A stretch of DNA of 45,306 nucleotides. Origin: Candidatus Poribacteria bacterium. GTDB taxonomy: Bacteria; Poribacteria; WGA-4E; WGA-3G. The DNA lies in the NCBI GenBank assembly GCA_012270795.1, contig JAAXHO010000170.1, positions 26,426 through 71,731 of the forward strand, in the 5' to 3' direction. Made by a program: the position numbers and the translations under genes. This document shows, one piece after another, positions 23,811 to 26,192 of this stretch. Position 1 is the stretch's first letter; the number at the start of each line of letters is the position of its first letter. The notes under the pieces were generated by a model. The model was not told where the DNA came from and made no database searches. It saw only the letters and a program-made list of their open reading frames with translations.

Positions 23811-23877
23811 GAATGGAATAAAAACAATTAAAATTGGTATTATTATACGCAACAAGTAGTTTTGGGATTTGAAAATT

Positions 23878-24080
23878 TCAATTTTTACACCAAAAAGGTG
23901 TGAAAACCCCAAGTGTCTCACGCATTTGTTTTAGTTCTGGATAGTCAACGTCTTTTCGTAGTTGCTTTACTTCTTTGTCAAGAGAATAGATTCTGTTTCA
24001 AGTTGAAAGTTCCGTTTGATAAGTTCTTCAACCTGTTCAAGAAGTATTTCGACTTGGGAATCATTTTGTTGTATATGCAT
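23878..24080 (-). pseudogene. Small coiled-coil protein, frameshifted
   Basis: The ATG at 24080 has a very strong AGGAGG at nine bases. The frame reads MHIQQNDSQVEILLEQVEEL and ends at TAA (23969-23967) after 37 residues. The other frame, from about 23974, continues smoothly as DKEVKQLRKDVDYPELKQMR and ends WCKN at 23878, so one base has been lost or gained. The joined product of about 67 residues has heptad-like Leu/Ile spacing, suggesting a coiled coil. The gene stops just inside the left inverted repeat of the putative element. The role is unknown. Confidence 0.5.
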
Positions 24081-24236
24081 AGTGATTTCCTCCTGCTATA
24101 CTTAACAAAGTGGTTTTTTATTTAAGCTGTTTAATCCTATTTTGTTAAGTATAGCATTAAAAAACTTGAGTGTCAAATTAGGGAGAGAAATAACTTTAAA
24201 AAGCCCCGAAAACCCTGATAAATACTGGGTTTTCCC

Positions 24237-24266
24237 TTGACATAAGACATTGAAAAATGGTATAAT
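24237..24266 (+). promoter_or_regulatory. Perfect-hexamer sigma-70 promoter
   Basis: TTGACA at 24237-24242 and TATAAT at 24261-24266 with an 18-base spacer. The next gene in this direction is only a transposase remnant, and just after the predicted start lies a hairpin at 24279-24300 (ATAGGGGG / CCCCCTAT). Confidence 0.65.
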
Positions 24267-24278
24267 ATAGGTAGGAAA

Positions 24279-24300
24279 ATAGGGGGCGGTAACCCCCTAT
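24279..24300 (+). other. Hairpin just after the promoter
   Basis: An 8-bp perfect stem with a six-base loop, within ten bases of the expected transcription start. A second stem (AAAAGCA and TGCTTTT) follows at about 24309-24326. It could be a short RNA or a 5' stabiliser of the transposase transcript. Confidence 0.45.
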
Positions 24301-24360
24301 AAGATCAAAAAAGCAGAGTTGCTTTTCTGATAATTTCTTATCTTTGCTGAACAACTTACC

Positions 24361-24685
24361 GGACGAAAAATCCTGGAATTTATCAGGAGTTTCGTCAATG
24401 TTAAAGATTCTGAGTTGATAACAGACGAATTTCAGGCTTACAACCTTATCGGCAAAGAGATGAAACACGCTGTTATCAATCATCAGGAGCAATTTGTTGA
24501 TGGTGAAACGCATAACAAACACGATAGAGGGCTTTTGGTCGCTTCTCAAGCGTGCCTGGTATGGTTCACACCATCATTATCAAACAGCATACACTCCGCT
24601 ATATGTGGCGGAAGCAGGCTATAAATACAACTACCGAAATCATGATGATATGTTCGGTAAGTTTATTAACGAAAGTATGAGGTGA
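24361..24685 (+). pseudogene. IS1595-family (ISXO2-like) transposase remnant
   Basis: The first frame gives GRKILEFI and then ELITDEFQAYNLIGKEMKHA, and the second gives NTIEGFWSLLKRAWYGSHHH up to TGA at 24685. Both match the DDE catalytic end of ISXO2-type transposases (TDE-x-x-AY, then H-T-N-T-I-E-G-F-W). The frames join if one extra A at about 24514 is removed, which restores GETHTNTIEGFW. The first two thirds of the enzyme are missing upstream of about 24360. This is a truncated and frameshifted remnant that cannot act on its own. Confidence 0.8.
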
Positions 24686-24688
24686 GAA

Positions 24689-24793
24689 ATGACAATAATA
24701 ACTTGGATATTAATGAGATTATCGGTGCTGTTGGCTGATAAGAAAGAATGTTCTTATGCTCCTCATAGGTTATTTCTTCTAACCACTCATTAA
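24689..24793 (+). CDS. Possible small protein after the transposase remnant
   Basis: A 34-residue frame (MTIITWILMRLSVLLADKKE...) follows the transposase stop by three bases, with GAGGTGAG before its ATG. The first half is hydrophobic. Its end overlaps the converging Cys-pair gene by 15 bases. It could be a leftover of the insertion element. Weak evidence. Confidence 0.3.
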   Translation: MTIITWILMRLSVLLADKKECSYAPHRLFLLTTH

Positions 24794-25219
24794 ATCCTCA
24801 AAAACATGTAAACATTCGTTGCAAATAAGATTTTTTTCTTTTAATAGGTGTGTTTCACCCGTTAGGCTAGGAGTTGAAATAAAGGTTTTGTATGTGGCGG
24901 TCATAACATTGACAATTGTTATCATTGTTAATGTGGCGATTCTACAATCATGACATTTCATCCCAGATTCTCTAAAGAACTCTCTCAATCTGAACCCTAT
25001 TCGAGGTTGCATGGGTTTTGAACTTAGTGCACCACAAGGTTTAGGACATAATAAGGCAAATGAATGGAGAAGGTCTTCTATTTTTCCAAAGCCCAAGGGG
25101 GGTTTCCAAGGATTGAATATACCTGCAACAGTATAGGCAGTTCGACATTGATGACATAAACGTGCGTGTTTGGGTGGAAACTCGCTGCCAATAATTGATC
25201 TTAAAAATTTCTTAATCAT
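24779..25219 (-). CDS. Protein with four Cys pairs (zinc-ribbon-like), unknown
   Basis: 146 residues from ATG 25219, which has AAGGG at seven bases. Cys pairs occur as CHQC (about 22-25), CPKPC (about 58-62), CHDC (about 89-92) and CNEC (about 134-137), enough for two zinc sites of the zinc-ribbon type. A mildly hydrophobic stretch (ATLTMITIVNVMTATYKTF) lies between the third and fourth pair. I recognise no family. The gene lies inside the putative inverted-repeat element. Its mRNA leader, 25220-25368, can form strong alternative stems that reach the Shine-Dalgarno sequence, which suggests control of translation. Zinc binding is inferred from spacing only. Confidence 0.6.
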   Translation of the reverse strand: MIKKFLRSIIGSEFPPKHARLCHQCRTAYTVAGIFNPWKPPLGFGKIEDLLHSFALLCPKPCGALSSKPMQPRIGFRLREFFRESGMKCHDCRIATLTMITIVNVMTATYKTFISTPSLTGETHLLKEKNLICNECLHVFEDLMSG

Positions 25220-25368
25220 ATTGTATCCCTTAAATTGTAGGTTTGGTCATCCAGTAAATCCCAACTTCTCACACAAAAGAAGTGGGTATCCCTGGCGACC
25301 AAACCATAACACCTAATTTGCATTAGATATGGGATACCCATAGTCTGATGGTGTTATAGTTTGGTCTG
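25220..25368 (-). promoter_or_regulatory. Structured mRNA leader with competing helices
   Basis: Read on the minus strand, the strand at 25366-25350 (GACCAAACTATAACACC) can pair over all 17 positions with 25313-25297, with one G-U pair. On the plus strand that pair would be an A-C mismatch, so the minus strand is the better RNA. The same 25305-25297 segment (GGTTTGGTC) can instead pair with GACCAAACC at 25248-25240. A second set of strands, GGGTATCCC (25339-25331) and GGGATACCC (25292-25284), is complementary, and GTATCCC also matches GGGATAC (25229-25223), which overlaps the ribosome-binding site. A further stem is at 25286-25260. This predicts at least two exclusive folds with opposite access to the Shine-Dalgarno sequence. 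Confidence 0.6.
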
Positions 25369-25374
25369 TTAAAG

Positions 25375-25404
25375 AGTCTACAATTAAAGAAGTGGGAATG
25401 TCAA
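25375..25404 (-). promoter_or_regulatory. Promoter for the leader and Cys-pair gene
   Basis: TTGACA (25404-25399) and TAGACT (25380-25375), spacer 18, on the minus strand. It would start RNA at about 25368, directly at the first arm of the leader stem. Confidence 0.55.
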
Positions 25405-25463
25405 GAAAAAAAGGGTTAAAAGAGTGTAAAAAATAACTGTCATCTCTATGTTTGGTGTTTTAT

Positions 25464-25493
25464 TTGTAATTTGGTGGGAATTAATCGTATAAT
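25464..25493 (+). promoter_or_regulatory. Promoter for a structured RNA candidate
   Basis: TTGTAA (25464-25469) and perfect TATAAT (25488-25493), spacer 18. The predicted start at about 25500 coincides with the first base of the closing stem of the RNA. Confidence 0.55.
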
Positions 25494-25499
25494 TAAGAA

Positions 25500-25612
25500 G
25501 ACCACCAAACACTCAATATGGGGGTGAAGCAGAATGACTATTAGGGTTAGGACCTGGTATTCGCGGGTGCAATACCCGCCACCTCCATAGAGTGTTTGGC
25601 GGTCGTTTTTTT
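25500..25612 (+). ncRNA. Structured small RNA candidate with own promoter and terminator
   Basis: A 15-base closing stem (GACCACCAAACACTC at 25500-25514 against GAGTGTTTGGCGGTC at 25590-25604, one mismatch) is followed at once by G and seven T, as in a rho-independent terminator. Inside it a second stem pairs GGGGGTG (25520-25526) with CACCTCC (25580-25586), and within that lies GCGGGT-gcaat-ACCCGC (25563-25579). An alternative hairpin pairs GGTATT (25556-25561) with AATACC (25571-25576) and excludes the former. No open frame fits. The inner part has tRNA-like size (about 67 bases) and a T-arm-like loop, but lacks a proper anticodon arm. A strong promoter on the opposite strand (25677-25649) means transcription from the other side cannot be excluded. 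Confidence 0.6.
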
Positions 25613-25648
25613 AATTTCAGAGCAGGGTCTATCCTGAACTGTTCATAT

Positions 25649-25677
25649 ATTCTAACGTAAAATAAGCAGATTGTCAA
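25649..25677 (-). promoter_or_regulatory. Sigma-70-like promoter facing left
   Basis: TTGACA (25677-25672) and TAGAAT (25654-25649) with a 17-base spacer. It would transcribe through the structured RNA in antisense and on towards the Cys-pair gene. Confidence 0.5.
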
Positions 25678-25785
25678 GTTAAATTTGACTTTTAAGCAAA
25701 TGTAAAATGTTAAGAATGAAAATTTTTGTTGAAAATAACGGGAAACGCAATTCTACATTTAATCCTGAATAAATAGAGGAAAAAC

Positions 25786-26079
25786 ATGAATAATAAAGTT
25801 GAGTTTGTTTCGATAGGTGGAAAACAGTTTAGTTTTGATTGGAATGTGACTAATAAAGATTGTGGGGTGGCAAATTCTGTAAAAGGATTGCCTGTAATAG
25901 ATGTTAACAATGAAGAATTAGCAAATATTCTTATAGAATCAAAAGATTATCTGTTGGCAAGCGATTGTGATTGTGCTATATACATAGGAAGTAAACTTCC
26001 TAAGCATTGTATTGATGGATTTCAATTTGAGTGTGTTGTGGGAAAATGTCTTGATGAATTCTTTTCACCTGACAACTAA
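25786..26079 (+). CDS. Small hypothetical protein
   Basis: 97 residues with a good AGAGGA before the ATG at 25786. The protein has no signal peptide or membrane segment. It contains five Cys, with a CDC pair in LASDCDCAIYIGSK, and is acidic at the C-terminus (CLDEFFSPDN). I recognise no family. It is the last gene before the right inverted repeat of the putative element. Weak composition bias and a solid ribosome-binding site make it a probable real gene. Confidence 0.6.
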   Translation: MNNKVEFVSIGGKQFSFDWNVTNKDCGVANSVKGLPVIDVNNEELANILIESKDYLLASDCDCAIYIGSKLPKHCIDGFQFECVVGKCLDEFFSPDN

Positions 26080-26192
26080 CAGAAAAACACAATCCCAAAA
26101 CTACTTATTGCGTTATTATATTTATGCAGTAACATTGTATCATATTTTTCAATTCTGAATCAAAATTCATTGCATTAGAAAGGGTAACAGAA

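Follow-up and report, generated by a model that had tools for sequence, protein, structure and literature searches.

ColE1 RNA I and the type I toxin-antitoxin systems exemplify antisense-controlled RNAs. In bacteria, the determinants of alanine identity are A73, G2-C71, G3:U70 and G4-C69 (PMC9976931), dual-identity tRNAs exist, as illustrated by tRNA-ProX (PMC11415595), and an 8-bp target-site duplication has been reported for the IS1016 group of the IS1595 family of insertion sequences (PMC10045372). Features comparable to these meet at a locus of Candidatus Poribacteria bacterium, analyzed here within a stretch of 45,306 nucleotides (the window). Specifically, an RNA gene of about 113 nt at 25500-25612 has its own promoter, ends in a 15-bp closing stem and a U-run, and lies in an IS1595-family transposon. 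Judged by its sequence, it looks like one member of a real, undescribed and lineage-restricted RNA family in Poribacteria. The papers searched include none on tRNA-like transposon cargo or such RNAs in Poribacteria.

The window RNA and its transposon

The RNA is preceded by a sense promoter (TTGTAA-18-TATAAT, 25464-25493, plus strand) and enclosed by the two arms of the closing stem, GACCACCAAACACTC at 25500-25514 and GAGTGTTTGGCGGTC at 25590-25604 (both plus strand), for which relatives show covariation. The 3' arm and the T7 run at 25606-25612 together form an intrinsic terminator (25590-25612). From the right, a second promoter faces the unit (TTGACA-17-TAGAAT, 25677-25649, minus strand, 11 of 12 consensus bases). 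The plus strand folds at -57.4 kcal/mol, compared with -30.1 +/- 3.5 kcal/mol for shuffled sequences (z -7.75; 0/200 shuffles), and the minus strand of the locus also folds (z -6.45). Every sequence feature named in the original prediction of a free-standing structured RNA, delimited by promoter, closing stem and terminator, is present.

Inside the closing stem, a U-A-U/A-U-A bridge carries a 7-bp acceptor stem on toward the closing helix. The 5' strand of this stem, GGGGGTG (G1-G7, with G3 pairing to U70), occupies 25520-25526, and its 3' strand, CACCTCC, followed by the discriminator A73, occupies 25580-25587. Between them, on the same plus strand, lie a 14-nt linker without a D stem at the place of the D-arm (25527-25540), an anticodon-like arm of 5 bp with a 7-nt loop (TTAGG-GTTAGGA-CCTGG, 25541-25557), a variable loop of 5 nt, as aligned to relatives, and a T-arm (GCGGG-TGCAATA-CCCGC, 25563-25579). 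At the level of sequence, this arrangement establishes a predicted tRNA-Ala/tmRNA-like fold with acceptor, anticodon-like arm and T-arm and without a D-arm. The anticodon-like loop, GUUAGGA, is not that of alanine (NGC). The lack of a D-arm and the loss of U55 indicate that the window copy may be a decayed member of its family.

Rfam, searched at gathering scores, yields no family in the window, and the window RNA is not called as a tRNA by ARAGORN, which fits the earlier description of a core that is tRNA-like and not a normal tRNA. Since both tools miss this member, similar cassettes may be overlooked elsewhere. In a permissive search, the sole notable sub-threshold Rfam match is tmRNA (RF00023; 26.1 bits against a gathering score of 47; E 7e-9), which covers both tmRNA ends and lacks the mRNA-like interior, with 32 nt instead of 328 positions. 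The real tmRNA of this genome lies elsewhere, on contig C211. Additionally, the genome contains at G000:C185:6099-6184 (L004 1501-1586, minus strand) a tmRNA tRNA-like domain in which a short capped hairpin replaces the whole mRNA-like part; this RNA scores 66 bits, above the Rfam tmRNA cut-off, is extra to the normal tmRNA and is possibly a minimal tmRNA-like RNA.

The surrounding transposon spans 23848-26112 and is flanked by an 8-bp target duplication, TTATTATA, with identical copies at 23840-23847 and 26113-26120. Its left terminal inverted repeat, CGCAACAAGTAGTTTTGGGATTT (23848-23870, plus strand), opens with CGCAACAAGTAGTTTTGGGATT and has two mismatches to the right end, CAATCCCAAAACTACTTATTGCG in plus-strand letters (26090-26112, minus strand). 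A frameshifted C-terminal part of an IS1595-family transposase remains at 24343-24682 (plus strand, found by tblastn), with 85% and 54% identity to an intact transposase in genome G014 that matches PF12762/PF12760. With only this broken remnant and no intact transposase, the element is non-autonomous, and the inverted repeats, the target-site duplication and the broken transposase around the RNA mark the latter as its cargo. The same element holds a 97-aa open reading frame at 25786-26079 (plus strand) with no Pfam or PADLOC match, a small open reading frame of 146 aa with CxxC pairs and no family match at 24779-25219, and, upstream of the RNA at 25297-25366, a further long inverted repeat, GACCAAACCATAACACC / GGTGTTATAGTTTGGTC. 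Across the genome, AATAACGGGRAACGCAAT is present at just two places, 25734-25751 of the window and G000:C276:12775-12792, and both lie downstream of a family unit.

Elsewhere in the genus, the same ends border intact IS1595-family elements with 8-bp target-site duplications (for example TAAAGTTT at G000:C235 and AACATTTA at G004:C58), and other elements bring other cargo. In this genome, such ends were counted 15 times, compared with two occurrences of a reversed control. At least one end lies near the units at 9/14 loci; inverted repeats are not recognizable at G000:C8, G016:C20, G012, G027 and the G014 array. In 650 kb of loci, gathered before the dedicated repeat search, a 17-mer of the repeat occurs only near units, in the same elements. 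Homology between copies ends shortly outside promoter and terminator and the neighboring genes differ; the smallest copies (C152 and G013:C185, about 410 bp) comprise only the unit, its promoters and decayed ends. At ilvN-ilvC, the flanks were too diverged for an empty-site comparison to give exact borders. SINE-like retroposition was rejected, as the homology takes in the promoter upstream of the transcript and the loci have DNA-transposon ends with target-site duplications.

Family members, covariation and facing promoters

A DNA search returned close copies in two congeners; a four-copy covariance model (R1) then added further units, and an 11-sequence model (R2) brought in the rest. In total, 23 units were counted, spread over a few genomes from a single Poribacteria genus and one genome of a sister genus, all of them metagenome assemblies; the E-values of these home-made models are rough. 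Five units belong to the genome studied here (on contigs C227, the window copy, C152, C185, C8 and C276), three to G013, two each to G016 and G004, one each to G012 and G027, and nine to G014, where seven stand in tandem at a spacing of about 110 bp and a pair lies on the other strand. Directly upstream of the seven-unit array lies a short CRISPR-like array with the repeat CTTCTAATCGAACCAATTTGGAATAGAAAC (L061 8719-9150, G014:C50). Weaker R2 matches outside the genus and G027 were ordinary tRNAs without a closing stem in the examples inspected. Plasmid and phage DNA gave no family matches, and five pattern matches on viral contigs are not family members.

The family keeps the identity set of alanine: among the 21 of 23 units that score well enough for strict alignment, G3:U70 is kept in 20 and A73 in all 21, even where the pairs 5:68 and 6:67 swap. 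The anticodon-like loops, mostly N-U-U-N-N-C-A, differ among units and are usually not those of alanine. Other family members do carry D-arms, and several form full cloverleafs, to which ARAGORN assigns Thr(UGU), Ser(UGA), Val(GAC) and Pro(UGG) despite their alanine-type acceptor. Position 37 is usually C in the family, a base that is rare there in decoding tRNAs.

In a MAFFT alignment of 11 sense units, 20 of 38 pairs show two-sided changes, with a score of 0.367 compared with 0.166 after shuffling. None of 500 shuffles reaches four of the five measures; no rise is seen in the remaining one, further pair types. Taken alone, the closing helix shows two-sided changes at 9 of 14 pairs in this alignment, which was made without the model, though one of its own rows supplied the structure. 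A model-fitted alignment of 24 rows, made up of the 21 sense units plus three antisense readings whose scores stem from symmetry, gives two-sided changes in 30/37 pairs, and 0/500 shuffles reach any of the five measures; this alignment (A7) leans to its own structure, and the more independent check comes from the MAFFT alignment (A6). The copies at G000:C152 and G013:C185 are orthologous, both lying between the same sulfotransferase genes, and differ very little over the stretch that begins at the -35 box and extends beyond the terminator. Their tRNA-like parts match at 100%, one G-C pair of the closing stem has become A-T by compensatory change, and the flanks have diverged, a pattern that we count in favor of presumed purifying selection.

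The covariation across about 20 homologous units, in which the stems are kept, confirms by sequence comparison that the window feature goes beyond chance. The original prediction had named a lack of stem conservation in homologues, or an ordinary Rfam family, as what would speak against it, and neither was found. Its RNA, its tRNA-like core and its promoters on both sides have stood; its proposed switch between two exclusive inner hairpins has not. Both hairpins exist in the window (GGTATT/AATACC and GCGGGT/ACCCGC, with AATACC in common), but the former is absent in relatives, since it needs the window-specific T-loop TGCAATA where relatives have TTCGATT, and the arm that is kept is the T-arm. 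That first reading had overlooked the anticodon-like arm, the identity set of alanine, the wider family and the transposon.

Scanned against an E. coli-type consensus, both promoters recur across the family. The sense promoter ends 4-8 nt ahead of the unit at 14/16 loci. A facing promoter near TTGACA-17/18-TATAAT, scoring at least 11, is conserved on the right, also at 14 of 16, and at four loci both of its hexamers are perfect. Compared with Markov shuffles, the facing promoter reaches a combined P of 1e-18 and the sense promoter one of 2e-8; of the two, the facing one is usually the better consensus match. At the same distance beyond 211 tRNAs of the same genomes, the score was reached twice, both times at family units found by ARAGORN, leaving 0/209 ordinary tRNAs, which makes the facing promoter a hallmark of the family. 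On the antisense side too, U-rich sequence comes after the stem at most loci, so that the closing stem may terminate both transcripts. The structured product is probably the sense RNA, since the conserved G:U wobble would be an A-C mismatch on the antisense strand. An invertible segment with the closing arms as inverted repeats was rejected: at loci with both promoters recognizable, the weaker sense promoter is always on the left and the facing one on the right. An antisense-coded peptide was likewise set aside, as the antisense reading frames vary from locus to locus and resemble artefacts commonly seen antisense to tRNAs.

Proposed function and competing explanations

The layout established from sequence comprises a predicted sense promoter, an alanine-type tRNA-like domain, a leader-trailer helix that doubles as terminator, and a second, facing promoter. 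We give an even chance to the model in which this unit is a transposon-cargo, alanylatable tRNA mimic of an undescribed family, restrained by convergent transcription (Specifically, the unit would be transcribed from its sense promoter, and the closing helix would be trimmed in at least some molecules by RNase III, RNase P/Z and CCA addition). The trimmed RNA would then be recognized by AlaRS through G3:U70, yielding an Ala-charged or AlaRS/EF-Tu-binding mimic whose anticodon loop is foreign or does not decode. In turn, the facing promoter, recognized by its consensus match, may limit production of the RNA via convergent transcription or antisense RNA. RNA that is unleashed would burden or alter translation, and the element might benefit through an addiction-like trait or conditional alanine insertion. 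Against this model, the closing helix continues into the acceptor stem through a U-1:A73 pair, so that RNase P should be hindered and the primary transcript should lack a free CCA end. The missing D-arm and U55 of the window copy, the usual C at position 37 and the loci at which inverted repeats are not recognizable also count against it.

The reading that comes closest, a non-canonical alanine tRNA for mistranslation or suppression that is trimmed, charged with alanine and decodes non-Ala codons via its altered anticodon loop, strikes us as doubtful. It would accommodate the cloverleafs read as Thr, Ser, Val and Pro on an alanine-type acceptor, for which the dual-identity tRNA-ProX offers a bacterial precedent (PMC11415595), and full-cloverleaf members could indeed decode. 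Members of the window type, however, have no D-arm, C prevails at position 37, arrays hold degenerate copies, and no synthetase or editing partner is seen alongside. As AlaRS recognizes the acceptor helix, a D-armless member could still be charged and yet would hardly decode, so that for the window copy we prefer a mimic that perturbs translation or engages AlaRS/EF-Tu to a plain decoding tRNA. An alanine-type body that stays constant while its anticodon loops are hypervariable would also suit a decoy that soaks up anticodon nucleases or other tRNA-targeting enzymes in conflicts between element and host, diverse loops widening its range, and both the mobile context and the array beside a CRISPR array are in keeping with this. 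A decoy would not need the strict retention of G3:U70 and A73, though, and just one locus lies near CRISPR, which makes this explanation improbable.

Simple decay is slightly less credible again: the units would be fragments of tRNA or tmRNA, as pseudogenes or old attachment sites, enclosed in a hairpin by chance. The window copy, D-armless and with a damaged T-loop, could be read this way, as could the 27 nt that the G016 and G013 copies have in common with the 3' end of the genus tmRNA and the resemblance of other members to tRNA-Ala; against it stand the closing-stem covariation, the orthologous conservation from promoter to terminator, the retained identity set and the two conserved promoters. 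A bacterial Y RNA of the YrlA type, bound via its closing stem by the Ro60/Rsr protein, is highly improbable. The genome does encode an Rsr with TROVE and Ro60 vWA domains (C272), and the RNA combines a closing stem with a tRNA-like domain; in the window RNA, however, the stem emerges at the acceptor end, the acceptor, anticodon and T arms follow in normal order, and no family unit was found beside rsr. We rejected it for this architecture, and also since rsr is adjoined by other RNAs, candidate Y RNAs whose tRNA-like domain is permuted (T-arm before D-arm). These candidates, observed beside the Poribacteria Ro60/Rsr gene, are often two in tandem and stay below Rfam gathering scores (L029 ~3651; L030 ~1473 and ~1721; L031 ~5574 and ~5823; L032 ~2222 and ~2468; L011 ~1253, reverse strand).

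Returning to the alanylatable mimic, a more far-reaching version, which we consider speculative and unlikely, is an RNA-only selfish module: a transposon-borne alanine-tRNA mimic that would perturb translation while being held down by its own facing promoter, resembling a toxin-antitoxin system with a tRNA-shaped toxin. If the RNA is charged, it would represent a natural, transposon-carried family that retains the alanine identity code and varies freely in anticodon, D-arm and context. In that case, why mobile elements bear tRNA-like genes and what role natural mis-identity tRNAs play would become testable with short synthetic RNAs.

Comparison with known systems

The window RNA shares with tRNA-Ala the pairs G1-C72, G2-C71, G3:U70 and G4-C69, A73, the T-arm and a 7-nt loop on a 5-bp anticodon-like stem. 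In contrast to tRNA-Ala, the window member has no D-arm and a non-Ala anticodon loop, and it sits in a 15-bp leader-trailer helix that is also a terminator, with a convergent promoter and as transposon cargo. The tRNA-like domain of tmRNA (ssrA, RF00023) likewise has no D stem, and the acceptor sequence GGGGGUGA is identical to that of the genus tmRNA, as is the T-arm/acceptor sequence CGCGGGUUCGAUUCCCGCCACCUCCA in relatives of the window RNA. Unlike tmRNA, however, the window RNA lacks P2, pseudoknots and a tag reading frame and has an anticodon-like hairpin instead. Bacterial Y RNAs (YrlA) also join a long closing stem and a tRNA-like module in one small RNA, but differ in arm order, the Y stem taking the place of the anticodon arm in their permuted module, in the point at which the stem exits and in their link to rsr, which the window RNA does not have.

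Antisense-controlled RNAs resemble the unit in that two promoters face each other across a structured RNA, whose antisense role is here a prediction; they differ in the replication primer or toxin reading frame, neither of which was found at this locus. Like tRNA-ProX of Streptomyces, the family appears to combine the identity elements of one amino acid with foreign anticodons, whereas its identity is that of alanine rather than proline, no dedicated synthetase is seen, and it has the stem-terminator cassette, D-armless forms and a place as IS1595 cargo. Finally, IS1595-family insertion sequences with passenger genes offer the same transposase domains (PF12762/PF12760), inverted repeats and 8-bp target-site duplications, but the passenger here is a gene for a structured RNA, with convergent promoters.
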